Source: Diacronema lutheri (lineage: Eukaryota; Haptophyta; Pavlovophyceae; Pavlovales; Pavlovaceae). Taken from it: 64,000 nt of DNA. The stretch is taken from the NCBI GenBank assembly GCA_019448385.1, contig JAGTXO010000017.1:372001-436000 (forward strand), in the 5' to 3' direction. Position numbers and translations under genes: made by a program. The notes beneath the pieces are model-generated. The model searched no databases. It was not told the DNA's origin and worked only from the letters and a program-made list of their open reading frames with translations. Shown in pieces: positions 8,880 to 36,900 of the stretch (position 1 is the stretch's first letter; every line of letters starts with the position of its first letter).

Positions 8880-11800
8880 CTAGTCGCTCCACACTGTGAC
8901 GCCGACCTCCACCTCGCCCTCGATCAGCCGGACGCGCCGCTGCACGGCTGAGCCGTCGCGCGGCAGCTCGGCGACGAGGAGCGTCGCCTTGCCGAGGAAG
9001 TCGTCGTCGCCAAGCGGGTCGGCGTCGTACACGTCGACGACGATGCGCGCGTCGGCGGACGCGCCCTCGAACGTGAACGCCTCGTCCCACTCGGGCGCGC
9101 ACGAGCCGGGCACGGTGCGCGTCCGGCCGCGCTGCCGGCGGTGAAGGTCGTCGAGCGTCACGAGGCAGTAGGCCGCCGCGAGCGCCGCCGCGCCGGCGGG
9201 CGGCGGTCTGTTGGCGCGTACGGCCGCGCGCGTCTCGGCGCTGTCGTCCTTGGGCGGCAGGCCGCGCGCGCGCACCACGCGCACCTGCACCGCGAGCCGC
9301 GCGTCGGCCGGCAGCCGCGGGTCGGCGGCGGGTAGCCGCGCATCCCATTCGACCGCGTCGGCCTCGCCATCCAGCAGCGCCTCGGCGGCGCGCGGCTGCG
9401 CGGCTGCGCGCGCGCCGGCTGGGCCGTGCGCGGCGAGCGCGCTGGCGGGCGGCGCGAGGTCCGCGCGGTACGCGGCGACAAGCGCCTGGGCAGCGCGCTC
9501 GTCGACGGGCGGCGCGAGCGGCTCGAGCTGCGGCGGCGTGGGCGGCGTGGGCGGCGCGATTGAGCGCAGACCGCGGGCCGCGGCGCGAGGGGTGGATGGG
9601 CGGAGCGCTCGCGCGTGTGCTCGCGCGCGCGCAGCGTTACGGGCGCGGGCGTCACGGGCGGTACGGGCGTTACGGGCGGGAGCTGCGCGTGGCTCGCACT
9701 GCTGCAGCGACGGCGCGCACCGTCGGCTGGACCGGCGCGCCGGATGGCGTCGCGCTCGCGCGCGCGCTCAGCGTGAATGCACCGACGTGAGCAGGCGCAA
9801 AAGCGCAGGGCACCACGATGGCGACCTGCCCGGCGCGCAGCGCGACCGATTCGCCGACAACCGGCGCTCGCACCCAACGCAGCGCGGGCGCAAGGCGCGC
9901 GCGGCTCGACAGGTCGGTGAGCGCGCCGAGCACCGACGCGTTGCCGCCCAACGCGAGCTCCTCGCCCGTCGCGTCAGCGACGACGAACCCGATGGCCGGC
10001 CGGCGCGGCACGGCGGGCGGCGCGGCGGCGGGCGGCGGCGGCGGCGGCGCACGCGCGCGCTCGAGGCGGCCGTCGGGCACGTGCAGCGTGAGGAGCACGA
10101 TGGAGTCCTGCGGCACGGCAAGCCGGTACGCCGGATTGAGCGGGAAAGTCGACAGGTGCGGTCCGCCGCCCGCGCTGCGCGCCTCCCATCTGCCCGAGAC
10201 CGTCGCGAGCCCAAAGCGCGACGGGCTCGTGAGCGTGCACTCCTGTCGGTTGCGCGCGCGGGCCGCGCGTCGCGTCAGGCGGTGCGCGATGCCGCGCCGA
10301 CCCACAAATATTTTTTTGAAAAAAGGCAGCCGAGGGGCGCCGCGCGCGCGCGGGTCGGCGGGAAGCATCCCGCGCTGTAATCCTTGGACCTGGCTGGCGG
10401 CCGGATGCGTTTACACGCGCGCGCGCACCTTGAAGACGCCGATGAGGCGCAGCGCCTCAGCGGCGGGCATCCAGAAGGACGACTCCGCCCACGCGGGCGG
10501 CGCGGGCGGCGCAAGCGGCGCGGCAACTGGCATGGCCGCAGCGGGCGGAGAGCCCAACGTACGCCCCGCGCCTGTGCGACGAACACGAAAGCGCGTGCGC
10601 GCGCCCACGCGCGCTCGCGCGACAGCGTTGGCTGGAGCGGCAGACGGGGCGTCGGCGCTTTTGGGCGTTGCACAGCGCGTTGAGCTGGCCGGCAGCCGCC
10701 CACAGCCGCCGGCCGCTCGAGCGCGCGCTCACCCAACGATTCGCCGCGCGGGTGCTTGCGCGCGGGCGCTTGCGCGCACCTTCCCACACGCCGTCGCATC
10801 GGTGCTCTGGCGCGAAGCGGTTCTCGAGCCGGAGCCATGCGCCGCTCGCCGGTCCGGCGTCCGGCTCTCCGGCGGGGCTGCCGGCCGATCCAGCGGCCGC
10901 GCCCGCGACCGCGACGACTGCGTACGCGCGCCCGCGCCAGAGGCCTCCGTCCATTGTGCGCAGCCCGCCGAACCCCCCCGGCACGTGCGGCGTGACGCTG
11001 CCACCCGGCACGGCCGCGACGAGCGCGCCGCGCGCGAGCGCGGCGCTGATCGCGCCGAAGAAGTCGGCCGTGGCCGCCGCGGTGGGCGCCGAGCCCGCGC
11101 CCGCCGCCTTGGCCGCGGCCGGCGGGAGCGGCAGCTCGCGCGCGTGGCCACCGCTGAGCAAGCGCAGCGCGTAGCCCACGTTCCCGCCAGAAATCGCCTC
11201 GTAACTGCCGAAGAGCTTGGCCACCGCCTTCTCAAGCAGCGCAACCCACGCACTCGACGGATCGAGCGCGCGCGCGTACAACGGCGCGCGCGCGCGCGTG
11301 TCGCACGGCACGCGGTCGTCGGTGACGACCGTTCGCCAGCCGCCATCGACGAACAGGGAGATGGCCACGACGCCCGCGGCCGAGTCGTATCTGGCGCGCG
11401 CCGAGCGCGCGGGCGCGCGCGCGCCATGGGACGGCGCGCGATCGTCGCCTGCGGTGAGGCGCGCGCCGATCGCGGGCGAGCGGCCGGTGCGCGCGGCGCG
11501 TGCAATGCGCGCGGCGCGCACGCGGTGAAAAGCTGTTCGATCGGCCCGAAGGCGCCGCCCGGCGTGGCCGTCGGCACCGCCGCCGCGGCGCCCGCCGCGA
11601 GCACGCCCATCGCCGAGAGGAGCCAGCCGTCCGCGAGCTTGCCTTGCACAAGCGTGTCGGCCGCCGGCGGCCGTTGGAAGACGAGCGCGGCCGCGTGCAG
11701 CTCCGAAGGCCGGAGCCACTCAACGCCGGCGTCAGAGTGGCCACGTGGCGGGCGCGTGGGCTCGCGGAAGAGAGACGACGCTGATGCGTCAAAGTCCGGG

Positions 11801-13369
11801 TCCTCGAATTGCCGACCGAGCGCCGCGCAGCGCGCGAGCACCGCCGCGAACGAGAGGCCAAGCGCGCGCGGCAGGCTCGCGCGCGCGCGCGCAGCCGGCG
11901 CCGCCGACGACGACGCGGCGGCGGCGGCCTCGCCGCCCTCACCGCCCGCTGAGAGGAGCGGCGGCACCGCCGCGCCCGCGCCGTGCGCCGCTCCGCCCGC
12001 CGCGTGCCCACCGGCGGCGGGCATGTGCGCGCCGTCGGCGCTGTCCGCGCCGGCGCGCGCGCGCGCGCCGGCCGTGAGATCGGCTGAGGCAAAAAGCTCC
12101 GACGAGCGTGCGGCCTCAGGCAGCCCAGCAGCCTGGCGCGCGCGGCGCACGTCCGCCAGCGCCGGGTCGATGAGCACCGTGCCGTACGCGTCGACGACCG
12201 GCAGCCGGGCCTTGCCGCCCGCGCCGTCGACCGTGCCGTGAGCGCCACCCCCCGCGCGGGCCTCCGCCGCGTCGAGCAACGCCCACATCTCGCGCGCGGC
12301 GGCAGCGCTCGCGTCGACGTCGCGCAGCGCGAAGCCGAGCGCCGCGCCCTCGAGCGCCGCGCACAGCCGCGCCGTCGGCAGGTCCGACGCGCGCGAATAT
12401 ATAATCACCGTTGTCGTCGTCGGCGGCGGCTTGGGCGGGAGCGCCTGGGGTAAGCCCGCCGCGCCGCGCGCGCGCAGCACGTCGTCGACGGACGGGCGCT
12501 GGAGGGTGGAGGCGCCGTACGCATCGATGATCGGCATGGCCAGCGGCACGTCGCCGCCGCGCCACCACGGCGCCGCCTTGGCGAGCGCCCACATCTGTGC
12601 GCGCGCGCGCCGCGCCGCGTCGTGCCACAAGGGCCCGGGGGCGGGCCGGAGGAGGTGGGGGGCTGAGCGCTCAGCTGTGGCGGCGTGCGGCGCTGCATGG
12701 CGCGCGCCCGCACTCGCGCCGCACCTGCTCGCGCTGCGCGGCGACGACGCTGCCCGCGCCGAGCGTGTCGCGCAGCTCGGGCGAAAGCCCCGCGCCGCGC
12801 AGCTGCCGGACAAGGGCGGCCGTCCATGGCTCCGCATCAGCCGGGCCGAGCGTGTACACGACAAGGCGACGCGCGGATGCGTCGGCGTGCGAGTCCGTCA
12901 CGCGATCACTGGTAGCAGCACCAGCGGCGCCGGGCCATCCCGGCGCGCCGCTGCGCGCGTCGGGCGTCGACAGCGCGCCCGGCGCGCCTGGCGCGCGCGC
13001 GGGCTCTGCAAAACCGCGCGCGCGCATCGAGTGCTTAATCTGCTCGACCGTCGGCGCCTGGAAGAGCTCACCCTCCACGTCGACGAGCGGGATCTCAATT
13101 TGAAGCCCCGCTCCGCCCACGGCGAGGCCATCGGGCCCGAGCATTCGCGCCGCGCGCAACTTGGCGAGCGCCTCGCGCCGGTGCGGCGCCGGCTGGACGG
13201 GCTCGAGCGGGCGCAGCTCGTACGCGATCGCGCGGCGCCGGCACGCGTCAATGAACTCGCGCGTCGCATCGGAGCCGTCGCGGCCGTATATGATTACGCG
13301 TGCCGTACGGTTGGCGCGCGCGTGCGGGGCGAGCTCGGATGGGGGTGGTGGTTGCCGCTCGGCGAGCAT
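8880..13369 (-). CDS. triple glutaredoxin-like / inactive calpain-like / C2 protein
   Basis: Exons 13369-12725, 12594-11522, 11390-10780, 10526-10429, then 10242 to about 9720 and about 9700-9580 to 8880. The first four introns have consistent phases; the last is unresolved. N-terminus: three glutaredoxin-fold segments lacking the CxxC site (RVIIYGRDGSDATREFIDAC; RLVVYTLGPADAEPWTAALV; TVIIYSRASDLPTARLCAAL), each followed by an IPLVDVEG/MPIIDAYG/LPVVDAYG half with the cis-Pro strand. The calpain core follows: SSLF, EWLRPSEL, then QGKLADGWLLSAMG where active calpains have QGxLGDCWLLSA, so the catalytic Cys is Gly. Later GLWRGRAYAVV replaces the GHAY histidine with Arg, while the Asn equivalent (RLENRF) is kept. 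Then FWM, a domain III-like beta sandwich (SRFGLATVSGRWEA) and a C2 domain with DVYDADPLGDDDFLG. Expected to be a non-catalytic, Ca2+/membrane-responsive scaffold; that role is inference. Confidence 0.8.
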
Positions 13370-13479: not shown

Positions 13480-14502
13480 TCAGCCCGCACTTGTCCCATC
13501 GCCGTCGCCGTCTCCGTCACCGCCAGCCCGATGCACACCGCTGTGGCCGTTGCCGCCGCGTGGCCTGGCCACCGGGCCGCCGGCCAGCGCAAAGCCCTCG
13601 TCGTCGAGGTCGACGTCGAGCGGCGCGAGGAAGTACTCGACAAAGCCCTGCTTGCCGCCCTCGTTGAGGCGCATCATCACGTTGAGCTCGCCGTTGTCCA
13701 TCACGCGCACGCACGCCTCCTCCGCCGAGTGCAGCGCGCGCGAGACCGCTTGCAGGTGCGCGAATGAGTAGGATTCGTCAACGTCGCGCTCAACGTCCGC
13801 CTTGGCCATTGCGTCGGCTGGGAACGTCATCTCGCAGCCGCAGTCGGCGTTGCGCACGGTGAGCGTGAGCGTGCGCGCGGCCGCGCCCACGCGCAGCTGC
13901 ACCACCTTGTCCCGCTGGTTCGCCTCGCCCCACTCGAGCTCGGCGAGGCCATCGCGCAGCGTCTCAGCCTTGAGCACGAGGCGGCACGACTGGCGGACGG
14001 ACGCGCCGCCGTGGTCGGACGGGAGGCCGTTGTCGAGCGTGGAAATCTCGCAGGTGGTGAGCGCAATCCCCTCCACGAGCGTCAGTCGCAGGCACGCGCT
14101 CTCCTCCTGGTAGCGCACGAAGAGCGACGGCGGCTGCGAGAGCGCGCCGCCCTTGCCGTCTAGTATGCGCAGGCACTCGAGCACGACGCCGAGGTTGAGG
14201 CCGATGAGCGCGGGCTCGGCTTCGGCGTAGGCGTACTCGCGAAACATGTCGGCCATCAGATAGACGCGCGCCTGCAGCGACGTCGACTCCTCCGTCGTGA
14301 ATCGCAGCCCCTGCTCCGAGAGCTGGCACCATGCGAGCGGACCCGCGAGCGGCGCCTGCCGCTCCTTGAGGCAGATCGCGCCGAGCAGCTTGGTGATGAG
14401 GCGGACGTGGTCCGTCTTGCAGCTGAGCAGCGCATCGACCGGCGGCGGGCTCGGCCCCGCAATCGACTGCGGCGTCCGGTCGTGTACGTCCACGTTCGCC
14501 AT
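13480..14502 (-). CDS. RAD1: RAD1, checkpoint clamp (9-1-1) subunit
   Basis: Single-exon gene of 340 residues. RAD1 is the PCNA-like subunit of the RAD9-HUS1-RAD1 ring that is loaded at damaged or stalled DNA and activates the checkpoint kinase. Family features seen: TDHVRLITKLLGAICLKE near the start, EQGLRFTTEESTSLQARVYL then MADMFREYAY (RAD1 has the same block around its first inter-domain strand), LIGLNLGVVLECLRIL, LRLTLVEGIALTTCEISTLD, and GFVEYFLAPLD near the C-terminus, where RAD1 proteins have CFVEYY. It is longer than the usual ~280 residues because of a short N-terminal extension and a C-terminal Gly/Asp-rich tail (GGDGDGDGDG). The start at the ATG ending at 14502 gives a plausible 5' end; the frame is open further upstream but not protein-like. 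Divergent from the esterase gene, 125 bp apart. Confidence 0.88.
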   Translation of the reverse strand: MANVDVHDRTPQSIAGPSPPPVDALLSCKTDHVRLITKLLGAICLKERQAPLAGPLAWCQLSEQGLRFTTEESTSLQARVYLMADMFREYAYAEAEPALIGLNLGVVLECLRILDGKGGALSQPPSLFVRYQEESACLRLTLVEGIALTTCEISTLDNGLPSDHGGASVRQSCRLVLKAETLRDGLAELEWGEANQRDKVVQLRVGAAARTLTLTVRNADCGCEMTFPADAMAKADVERDVDESYSFAHLQAVSRALHSAEEACVRVMDNGELNVMMRLNEGGKQGFVEYFLAPLDVDLDDEGFALAGGPVARPRGGNGHSGVHRAGGDGDGDGDGTSAG

Positions 14503-14627
14503 GGAACTCGCCCCAGAAAGTAATGGCTTCCCGCCCTTCGCCTCCACGGAAGGCTTTGAACGCGCCTTTTTTTGGCGGTGCCCAGTTGGTGCAACGTTGG
14601 CAAATGCACGCCGGATTCGTGCGCTGA

Positions 14628-16168
14628 ATGGCCACGCGCGCGCGCCTCGGGCTGGCGCTCGCGCTGCTCGCCGCAACGCGCGGCACAAACCTGTGCTACG
14701 ATGACAGGCCGCGTGATCCAGGCCTCTATGACGGCGAGATCTTCGTCGCCGGGCAGCGCAGGACGTACGTCCTCTACGTCCCAAAGACGTACGACGGGCA
14801 CACCCCAATGCCGCTCATCATCAACTGGTGCGGCGAGGCGGGGCGCGCGCGCTCGAGGCCGTGCATGCGCGACGGCTCGCCGCCAGTGCACCGACCATGG
14901 CTCGCGCGCGCGTGCTCGCGCGCCGCCCGCTCGCCCGCGCGTGCCCGCGCCGCGCGCGCCGCTCGCGCAGCCCCAACACGCACGTCTCGGCGCTCGAGGA
15001 GCTGCACCAGTCGGGGCTGGTGGACGATGGGCGCGGTGACCACTACATAGTGGTGACGCTCAACGCGATCAACAAGGCCTTCAACGTGCTCGAGGACGCG
15101 CGCGCTTCGCCGCGCGGCCCCGACGACGTGCTGTTCGCGCGGACGCTCTACCGGTACCTCGCGTCGCGGCTGTGCGTCGACCCGGCGCGCGTGTTCGCCA
15201 CGGGGATTTCGCGCGGCGGGCGGTTCGCCTCGCGCCTCGCGTCCGAGATGTCTGACATCATCGCCGCGATTGGCGTCGTCTCCGGCCTCCGATTCCCGCA
15301 GCCAAACAACGCGTCGCGCCCCGTGCCAGTCATCGCCTTCCACGGCACAGCCGACCCGATCAACCCGTACGAGGATGGCGGGCCGGACTACTGGCAGACG
15401 GGCGTGGAGGATGCCGTCGCTGGCTGGGCGCGCTTCAACGGCTGCCGCCGCACGGCCGAGCACCGCATCGCAACGTCCATCGTGAAGTTGTTACATTACG
15501 ACTGTAACGACAACGCGGACGTGGTCTTGTACAAGATCGAGGGCGGCGGGCACACATGGCCGGGTTCAACGTTCTACTACAACAACCAGGGCCGCCTGCG
15601 CCTTGGCCCCGCGACCCTCGAGATCTCCGCCTCCGACATGATGTGGTCCTTCTGGGATAGGCACGTCGTGATGCGCACCGACAAGAACTACTGGAAGAAG
15701 ATCGGCATCAAGGAGAACGCCGAGATTGAGATCGCGAGCGCGCGCGCCGAGGCGGGCGCGCGCCGCGTGCGCGGCGGCGGCGTCGGCGGCGGCGGCGTCG
15801 GCGGCGGCGGCGTCGGCGAGGCCGGCGAGGAAGGCGCCGGCGCGAGCTGGCGAGGATGGGCGCGCCGCTGGGCGCAGCGCGCGGGCGTGAGCGGTGCCGG
15901 CACGGGGAGGTTGGAAAGCGCAGAGCCGGCAAGCGCGCGCGCGGGCGCGTGCGCGGCTGCGCTCGGCGCCTTCGCGCTCGCCCTCGCCGGCGTGGGCGCG
16001 CGCAGACGAGCGCGAGCGCCAGGACGCGCCGTGCGCGAGCCGCGCGAGGCGGCCGTCGGCGCAGCGGCGGCAGGGGCCGACGGCGAAGCCGCGGCCGCGG
16101 CGGTGGTGCCGCGAACGCCGCCCGAGCGCTCGCGAATACTTTTCGGCGGTGGTGGCGGGCTCGTCTGA
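14628..16168 (+). CDS. secreted esterase of the LpqC / PHB-depolymerase type, membrane-anchored
   Basis: Exons 14628-14842 and 14971-16168, about 470 residues. The intron is best read as a 128-bp GC-AG intron, but its donor is not certain. The N-terminus is a signal peptide (ARLGLALALLAATRG). The alpha/beta-hydrolase core shows RTYVLYVPKTYDGHTPMPLI, a nucleophile elbow FATGISRGGRFASRL (Ser in GxSxGG), VIAFHGTADPINPYEDG with the acid residue, and KIEGGGHTWPGS with the catalytic His. This order is typical of polyhydroxybutyrate depolymerase and feruloyl-esterase-like family-1 esterases. After the catalytic domain come a GGGVGGGG repeat linker, a hydrophobic segment (ACAAALGAFALALAGVGA) and a basic tail, so the enzyme may be held at the cell surface or an endomembrane. 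Substrate unknown. Confidence 0.8.
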
Positions 16169-32946: not shown

Positions 32947-35900
32947 ATGCTCACGGAGAATGGGGTGCTGGACATGCGGAACGGCACGTCGGCGCGCGGG
33001 CAGGTGGTCCAGCTGATCGACGTGCGCCGCGTCCAGTCGGCCACCGTCGCGCCCGCCGGCGGCAACGAGCGCTACCGGCTTGTCATCTCGGACGGCAAGT
33101 TCTTCCAGCAGGCGATGGTCGCGACGTCGCTGCACGCGCAGATGCAGGACGTACGGCCCAACGCGGTGATGAGCGTCGACGCATGGACGCCCAACCAAGT
33201 GAGCGGCCGCATCATCATCGTCATCATGGGCTTCACCGTCCTCGACGCCGACTACGGCTCGCGGATTGGCAACCCGCAGCCGGTCGAGGCGGCGGGCGAC
33301 AGCGCCGCGGCGCGCGCGCCGACGGGCGGGCCGCAGCCGGGCGGGCCGCAGCCGGGCGGGCCGCAGCCGGGCGCGGTGTACGCGCAGCAGCCCGCGCCCC
33401 TCGCCGGCTACGCGCCGCAGCCGCACGCCGCGCCGCCCGCGCAGCAGCAGCCGCAACCGTGGCAGAACGGTAGCGGCTACGGCGGCGCGTACAACCAACA
33501 ACCGCCGCAGCTGGTGCAGTACGCGCAGGCGCAGCAGCAGCCGCCCGCGCAGCAGCAGCAGCAGTGGGCGCAGCAGCAGCCGCAGCTGCAGCAGCCGTGG
33601 CAGCAGCAGCAGCAGCCGCAGCTGCAGCAGCAGTACGCGCAGGCGCAGATGCAGCAGCAGCCCGTGCAGCAGCAGCAGCAGCAGTGGGCGCAGCAGCAGC
33701 AGCAGCAGCAGATGCAGCAGCCGCCCGCGCAGCACTGGCAGCAGCAGCAGCAGATGCAGCAGATGCATCAGCCGCAGCAGCAGCAGCAGCTCTTCGGCGG
33801 CGCCGGCGGCCACGGCGCGGTCGCGCGCTCGAGTGAGGATGCCATCACTATGCCCATCTCAGCAATCAACCCGTATCAGAACAGGCGAGCGCACACGCAT
33901 GCGGCCCCGCGGCCGCGGCCGCAGCTGTGGCCGCACGCGCGCACGCACGCTCGCGCACACGGGCGCGCGCACGCGTGGCTGCGGCTTCGGCTCAAATTGC
34001 CGCCACCACGCCGCGCTCGACCACGCCGCGCGCGAGTTCGCCGCGCGCGACGGCGCGTGCACGCACAGCGCACGGGCGCGCTGAGACCGGTGCCGACCCG
34101 CGCGAACGCGCCGTCGCACCTCCGCTCGCCGCCGCTCGGCCGTGCGCATGGCGGCTTACCGCCCGCGCGCGCGCCACGCGCGCGCCCGGCCCCGTGGCCT
34201 CGCCCTCGCACGTCGTGCCCGCCGTGGGCGCGCGCAGGTGGGCGATCAAGGGGCGCGTGACGCAGAAGGGCGCGAAGAAGACGTACACGAACGCGCGCGG
34301 CGAGGGCAACCTCTTCTCGTTCACGCTGTGCGACGCGGACGGTGACATCCGACTCACGTGCTTCAATGAGGTCGCGTTGCGGCTGCACGCCGCGGTGAAC
34401 GTGGGCGAGCTGCTGCTCGTCAAGAACGGGCAGGTGCGGCGTTGGGCGAACGGGAGAAAGGGAGCGAGTGGAAGGGGGGAAGGGAAGGGGGCAGGGGGGG
34501 GGGGGGGGTGGCGGCGGAATTGCGTGCCGCGCGCTGCGCACCGCACGGCGCACCCCACCGGACCGCACGGCGCACCCCACCGGACCGCACGGCGCACCCC
34601 ACCGGACCGCACGGCGCGCGCAGGTGAAGGCGGCGAACGAGAAATTCAACAACACGTCGTCGCGATACGAGGTGACCCTCGGCCCCTCATCCGAGGTCGT
34701 GCCCATCAGCGACCCGCACGCCGCGAGCTCGATCCCGGCGGGCCATTGGCTGATCGTCCCCATCGCCGCCCTCGCGGCGATGGACGGCGCCGAGGGCGCG
34801 ACGGGCGCGAACGCGCCGCCGTCGAGGGGCGTCGACGTGCTTGGCGTGCTCCTGTCTGTAAGCGACCGGCGCGGCGGGTGGCGCGTGGGCGGGCGGGCGG
34901 GTGGATGGGTGGGTCGCGTGGGTGGGCGGGTGGGTGGGCGGGTGGGTCGCGTGGGTGGGGTGGGCGGGTGGGCGGGTGGGCGGGTGGGTGGGTCGCGTGG
35001 GCGGGTGGGCGGGTGGGTGGGTGGGTGGGTGGGTCGCGTGGGTGGGTGGGCGGGTGGGTGGGTGGGTGGGTGGGCGGGTGGGTGGGTGGGTGGGCGGGTG
35101 GGTGGGTCGCGTGGGTGGGTTGGGTGGGTGGGTCGCGTGGGCGGGTGGGCGGGTGGGTCGCGTGGGTGGGTGGGTGCGTGGGTCGCGTGGGTGGGCGGGT
35201 GGGTGGGCGGGTGGGTGGGTGGGCGGGTGGGTGGGCGGGTGGGTCGCGTGGGTGGGCGGGTGGGTGGGCGGGTGGGTCGCGTGGGTGGGTGGGTGGGTGG
35301 GTGGGTGGGCGGGTGGGTCGCGTGGGCGGGTGGGTGGGTGGGTGGGTGGGCGGGTGGGTCGCGTGGGTGGGTGGGTGGGTGGGCGGGTGGGTCGCGTGGG
35401 CGCGTGGGCGGGTGGGTCGCGTGGGTGGGTGGGCGGGTGGGTCGCGTGGGTGGGCGGTTGGGTGGGCGGGTGGGTCGCGTGGGTGGGTGGGTGGGTGGGC
35501 GGGTGGGTGGGCGGGTGGGTCGCGTGGGTGGGTGGGTGGGTGGGTCGCGTGGGTGGGCGGGTGGGTGGGTGGGTGGGTGGGTGGGTGGGTCGCGTGGGTG
35601 GGCGGGTGGGTGGGCGGGTGGGTGGGTGGGCGGGTGGGTCGCGTGGGTGGGTCGCGTGGGTGGGCGGGTGGGTGGGCGGGTGGGTCGCGTGGGTGGGTGG
35701 GTGGGTGGGCGGGTGGGTGGGCGGGTGGGTCGCGTGGGTGGGGTGGGCGGGTGGGCGGGTGGGCGGGTGGGTGGGTCGCGTGGGCGGGTGGGCGGGTGGG
35801 TGGGTGGGTGGGTGGGTCGCGTGGGTGGGTGGGCGGGTGGGTGGGTGGGTGGGTGGGCGGGTGGGTGGGTGGGTGGGCGGGTGGGTGGGTCGCGTGGGTG

Positions 35901-36900
35901 GGTTGGGTGGGTGGGTTGGGTGGGTGGGTCGCGTGGGCGGGTGGGCGGGTGGGTCGCGTGGGCGGGTGGGTGGGTGGGTCGCGTGGGTGGGCGGGTGGGT
36001 GGGCGGGTGGGTGGGTGGGCGGGTGGGTGGGCGGGTGGGTCGCGTGGGTGGGCGGGTGGGTGGGCGGGTGGGTCGCGTGGGCGGGTGGGTGGGTCGCCTG
36101 GCGCCGCATGGCGCGGCGTGGCGCGACGCGTCGGCGAAGGGCGGCGTGCGTTGGCTAAGGGCGCAGGGCCGAGCGGATGCGCCGTTACATTGCCCTCAGC
36201 GGCCCCTTTCCTTTGCTATACCGTTACTCTTCCTAACCTTTTACCCCCCCCCCCCCACCCCCCACCCCCCGCCCCGACCCCGCCCCCGCCCCCGCCCCCC
36301 CGGTCTCCTGCGCGCCAGGTGGGCGAGTCGTCCACATTCACCTCCAAGGCCGGCAAGGAGCTGACCAAGCGCGTCGTTGAGATCGCCGACGATTCGAACC
36401 ATTCGATCGAGCTCACAATTTGGGGAGAGCTCGCAACCACGTTTGGTGCGTGTTCAGCACCTCTCCTTCCCCCTTCCCCCTTCCCCCTCGCCACCACCCA
36501 CCCAGGCACAGTAATACCCACACTCGCACTCACACTCACCCACGCACCCACAACACACACAGTGACGATCACAGTCACGCAGTCGCAGTCACAGTCACAG
36601 TCACCCCCACCCACCCACTGCCCACGCTCACACTTTAAAAACGGCCGCGCCCCGCCCGCCGCGCAGCCGGCGGGCCGGGCGACGTGGTCGTGGCCAAGGG
36701 CGCGCGGCTGTCGGCGTGGAACGGAAAGTCGCTCTCGTCATCGTTTGATGGCGATGTCTTCCTCCACCCGCAGCATGAGAAGGCGCCGAGGGTGCGGGCG
36801 CTCCTTCGCCGCTCAGCCCCCCCCCCCCCCCCCCCCCCCCTTCCACCCTCACCCTCAGCCACCCCTCACCCCAAGCCACGCCGACACCGACACTCCCACA

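Follow-up and report, generated by a model that had tools for sequence, protein, structure and literature searches.

The main finding of this work is a gene predicted to encode a calpain-like protein of 1213 amino acids without the catalytic Cys and His, on the minus strand of the haptophyte Diacronema lutheri (8880..13369 of a 64,000-nucleotide stretch from contig JAGTXO010000017.1, hereafter the window). In a single frame-consistent model, three N-terminal repeat modules lacking a CxxC motif are followed collinearly by the calpain core, which has lost its Cys and His, by a borderline domain III and by a C2 domain. We see about an even chance that a single gene here encodes a non-proteolytic calpain homologue, a scaffold or adaptor carrying modules of the glutaredoxin/thioredoxin (Grx/Trx) type, and the sequence is best read as a known kind of protein in which domains are newly combined. 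A preliminary description of this DNA had proposed the fusion of three degenerate glutaredoxin-like domains to a dead calpain and a C2 domain; the pseudo-calpain, the CxxC-less repeats and the C2 domain are borne out here, while the glutaredoxin identity of the repeats has moderate support.

The calpain core begins at residue 456 (10780..11874, minus strand, interrupted by intron 2 at 11521-11391) and was delimited by Pfam and by alignment with Protein Data Bank (PDB) entries. The Peptidase_C2 profile PF00648 matches residues 478-736 with an E of 4.4e-33 and 115.1 bits (cut-off 23.8), which places the protein in the calpain superfamily, and a phmmer search of the core against the PDB gave 19 distinct sequences at E<=0.01, from calpains -1, -2, -3, -5, -8 and -9. 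Over the whole protein, Peptidase_C2, C2 and Calpain_III were the only Pfam families at E<=10. Calpains are commonly regarded as Ca2+-driven proteases. At the catalytic Cys position, QGKLADGWLLSA pairs with QGALGDSWLLAA of calpain-2 PDB entries, whose Ser we take to be a substitute for the catalytic Cys, and therefore Gly538 occupies the position of the nucleophile. The nearest other Cys, residues 471 and 602, are both more than 60 residues away, and the remainder of the nine in the protein are residues 43, 293, 771, 826, 970, 1119 and 1141. The His motif reads GLWRGRAYAV, with Arg at the catalytic His position, and the catalytic Asn is apparently retained in LRLENRF, according to a hand alignment, since MAFFT misplaced that stretch of the row. 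Thus, the Cys-His-Asn triad of an active calpain is broken by Cys to Gly and His to Arg changes, both of which had been proposed before and agree with the alignments. The protein also departs from classical calpains in ending with a C2 domain rather than a penta-EF-hand. Against a loss of proteolysis stands the remark, in a review of trypanosomatid calpains, that activity can survive a change in the triad (PMC7912814).

The gene model was built from the minus-strand translation by choosing GT-AG sites with matching phases. It runs from an ATG at 13369 to a stop at 8880 through six predicted exons (13369-12725, 12594-11522, 11390-10780, 10571-10429, 10242-9721 and 9527-8880), and its five introns, of 130 to 208 bases, all start with GTGCG. 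The joins across introns 3 and 5 are the least certain, as alternative candidate splice sites were seen by eye. The spliced coding sequence contains no internal stop, a condition that none of 500 base shuffles reached (they averaged 14.0 stops, with a minimum of 4), and the GC content of third codon positions exceeds that of second positions in all six exons (0.83-0.94 vs 0.56-0.71). In sliding windows, the frame of the model scored highest over most of the exon sequence and was tied in two windows near 13000. The coding-frame signal was lowest (0.08 to 0.14) across an Ala/Gly-rich linker, recognized by composition, that joins the third module to the core (residues 377-455, 31 Ala and 13 Gly of 79; 11875..12111, minus strand). 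This weak signal, and an in-frame Met codon near 12024 within the linker, would suit two adjacent transcripts, one for the modules and one for a calpain starting at that Met; nevertheless, exon 2 is free of stops from the middle of the second module through the third and the linker into the core, and a single frame is best in every 150-base window starting from 12670 to 11545, so that we hold two transcripts to be very improbable.

Genome-wide searches were carried out on the D. lutheri assembly (103 contigs, 43,492,796 bases; the window lies in contig C46), where PF00648 gave 19 matches, corresponding to 15 loci and 16 core domains. Thirteen of these cores were aligned with MAFFT. The core of C10 was excluded because its matched stretch contains stops (by eye, Cys, His and Asn are all present in its motifs QGGVGDCWF, GSHAYSIL and RIRNPHG), that of C14 because it is partial, with a stop (it resembles C37), and that of C29 because its match begins only at profile position 73. 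Both Cys and His are absent from 7 of the 13 aligned cores, namely the gene described here, both domains of C86, C5, C33, C48 and the copy at C6:226k; over the full set the count seen is 7 of 16, with C29 unscored. The triad is intact in another five (C40, C69, C82, C6:508k and C9), and C37 departs from it only by an Asp in place of the Asn. Arg at the His position is common to our gene, C86b and C48. Judged from these residues, loss of calpain catalysis is common in D. lutheri. A read error or other local error at both sites of our gene was considered and is unlikely, because paralogues lack the same two residues.

In the calpain tree, the dead cores C86b, C33, C5 and C48 form a group (support 97/97), whereas the gene described here has no supported partner; its long branch (1.69) joins that of C37, and the rows closest to it in path length are intact calpains. 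A single clade of the seven dead cores was neither shown nor rejected (approximately unbiased test, p-AU 0.35). Since the gene is unplaced in the tree, it may have lost catalysis independently of the other dead cores. The long branch, the proximity of intact calpains and the loss of both residues could also be expected if the gene of an active calpain were decaying into a pseudogene. However, the six exons are in frame, without a stop and with codon-position bias in each, and the six other genomic cores without the same two residues lie in long open frames; we therefore judge decay to be improbable.

Some paralogous loci had features of their own. In C86 (L052), one open frame of 1958 residues contains two tandem calpain cores, both without Cys and His. 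In C6 (L059), a long tandem repeat of the GEWQRVA type lies inside an 8.5 kb stretch with a dead calpain paralogue, and in C48 (L061) the terminal part of a frame downstream in the dead-paralogue stretch resembles an OmpA-like motif. The divergent calpain homologue of C29 (L063) had as its sole PDB match at E<=0.01 the ciliary protein FAP42 of Chlamydomonas (E 4.9e-16), and may be the androglobin/FAP42-type gene of D. lutheri. Androglobin is described across flagellated lineages, Haptophyta included, and androglobin and FAP42 are, like our protein, large and multidomain, with a calpain domain (PMC13331133). The core described here differs, since FAP42 was not among its PDB matches, which were to calpains -1, -2, -3, -5, -8 and -9.

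The N-terminal region consists of three modules, all on the minus strand: D1 (residues 21-123, 13001..13309; repeat alignment, profile and model), D2 (residues 165-266, 12442..12877; repeat alignment), which is interrupted by intron 1 (12724-12595), and D3 (residues 274-376, 12112..12420; repeat alignment and model), which shares an exon with the start of the calpain core. They are mutually related, D2 and D3 being 23% and 31% identical to D1, and P-x-x-D-x-x-G is invariant across the three. This motif is cis-Pro-like and has the spacing of P-x-x-F-x-x-G in most D. lutheri glutaredoxin rows. As stated in the preliminary description, the modules have no CxxC, nor do they have CxxS, and they therefore lack the active site of a glutaredoxin; their sole Cys are residues 43 and 293. 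When the repeat profile was compared with a profile of eight D. lutheri Grx/SH3BGR-like sequences (set A3, a selection made by eye among the 18 loci L032-L049), the match had an E of 7.7e-4, a probability of 25% and a score of 24.2, a score that none of 200 column shuffles equalled (highest 17.3) and that fell to 12.3 with the reversed profile. Among single rows, a CxxC-less SH3BGR-like protein of D. lutheri matched the repeats best, with a score of 20.2, and 1 of 400 decoys scored equally high; the decoys were drawn from 546 windows in open frames 450 or more residues long, whatever the reading frame, of which many must be non-coding. Low-confidence models of the modules both have the strand and helix order b-a-b-a-(bb)-a.

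Several results weigh against a glutaredoxin fold. None of the three modules matched any Pfam family at E<=10, and searches of the repeats against NCBIfam and PDB sequences gave no NCBIfam family and no credible PDB match. The tying decoy, a window of L058 in C9, also reached 20.2. Both structural models are of low confidence, and the first Foldseek matches, although redoxins (Mrx1 for D3 and NrdH for D1), are non-significant. In a VIA-align comparison, the top rows were other folds, and this result was not used as fold evidence. These results would be explained if the repeats were some other small alpha/beta fold, and the protein a pseudo-calpain with lineage-specific N-terminal repeats, which we regard as possible but less likely, given the profile score with its shuffled and reversed controls, the redoxins that head the Foldseek matches and the agreement of the cis-Pro-like spacing. 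Taken together, sequence and models lend moderate support to D1-D3 being glutaredoxin folds.

Across the genome, the glutaredoxin profile PF00462 was found at 16 places and the SH3BGR profile PF04908 at 2, none of them within the pseudo-calpain gene. Queried with the N-terminal part (E<=1), the genome yielded this gene alone, with no second repeat array, and scans of viral contigs with the D3-to-core stretch and with the repeat alignment gave no relatives. Two loci of C9 were recorded besides: an SH3BGR-like protein without CxxC (L048, C9:960539-960757; 24 bits vs a Pfam cut-off of 21), and L058 itself, a frame near the C9 calpain whose stretch KAVTIYGRQFHISDATAETRAF resembles D1 over 34 columns and presumably also a DM10 domain.

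Downstream of the core, domain III followed by C2 had been proposed, and the two did not fare equally. The end of the core and the domain III-like region (residues 777-998; 9721..10571, minus strand, with intron 4 at 10428-10243), located by Pfam and splicing, gave a borderline Calpain_III match of 21.1 bits on an excerpt (cut-off 21) and 15.4 bits over the whole protein. The last exon (residues 999-1213; 8880..9527, minus strand), defined by the same means, comprises a linker and a clear C2 domain (residues 1078-1189; PF00168, E 2.3e-15, 57.1 bits vs a cut-off of 22). Its Asp-rich loop VYDADPLGDDDFLG is retained and resembles IWDADHFSADDFLG of otoferlin in the alignment, and C2 domains of PKC were also among the matches. 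Loop 1 holds an insert and seems to lack one Ca2+-binding Asp. The retention of the Asp-rich loop makes a Ca2+- and membrane-responsive adaptor plausible as read from the sequence.

With neither a calpain nucleophile nor a redox pair in its repeats, the protein is most simply explained by a role in binding. We hypothesize that the N-terminal modules may keep a glutaredoxin/thioredoxin-type fold without the redox site and act as protein-binding surfaces, that the dead core may serve as a scaffold, by analogy with CAPN6 and trypanosome calpains, and that the C2 domain may direct the protein to a membrane or another partner, perhaps in response to Ca2+. The whole protein would then be neither a protease nor a redox enzyme, and rather an adaptor, most likely at the cytoskeleton or membrane.

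Previous studies supply the analogies on which a scaffold function is proposed. Eutherian CAPN6, in which the active-site Cys is replaced (by Lys in humans), is a regulator of microtubule dynamics that is regarded as non-proteolytic (PMC3731218). It resembles the D. lutheri protein in that replacement; the latter lacks both Cys and His, and N-terminal repeats are not mentioned for CAPN6 in the portion consulted (PMC3731218). The calpains of Trypanosoma brucei are described as structural, mainly microtubule-stabilising, and many trypanosomatid calpain-like proteins likewise have altered triad residues (PMC7912814); their partner domain DUF1935 (PMC7912814, PMC3563603) is not among the Pfam matches of our protein. 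SH3BGRL proteins (TPECs) have a CxxC-less thioredoxin fold that caps actin pointed ends non-catalytically, a similar mode of binding being attributed to yeast Aip5 (PMC12827327). That the single row matching the repeats best is an SH3BGR-like protein speaks for this likeness, whereas SH3BGRL proteins are small (10-20 kDa; PMC12827327) and the D. lutheri repeats are fused to a calpain and belong to no Pfam family. An adaptor linking actin, through SH3BGRL-like tandem thioredoxin folds, with a dead-calpain scaffold that acts, like CAPN6, on microtubules or on other partners, and with a C2-anchored membrane, perhaps under Ca2+ control, is a speculative and rather improbable extension.

Zhao et al. 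(2012) described 41 calpain domain arrangements from 44 species, among which Emiliania has fusions with PUB and UBA; neither glutaredoxin nor thioredoxin is named in the main text and partner-domain table of that work (PMC3563603). Titles and abstract beginnings of the open-access papers listed gave no calpain fusion with a glutaredoxin or thioredoxin-like fold, and within these sources the earlier statement that no such fusion has been described holds. A combined-term search of the same literature found no paper on inactive calpain-like pseudoenzymes.

Elsewhere in the window, an open frame upstream of the gene (13480-14808, minus strand) encodes a Rad1 protein of the 9-1-1 clamp (PF02144, E 8.8e-25). 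A 1.2 kb GTGG-type array at 34885-36094 has about 293 copies of a 4-base unit with 79% matches; one of its strands is G-rich, and the AT skew is -1 in 35001-36000.

The absence of Cys and His from 7 of 13 aligned cores adds to the case that non-proteolytic calpains may be a regular evolutionary outcome, and a pseudo-calpain with a new N-terminal repeat array would offer a concrete protein for testing the scaffold idea.
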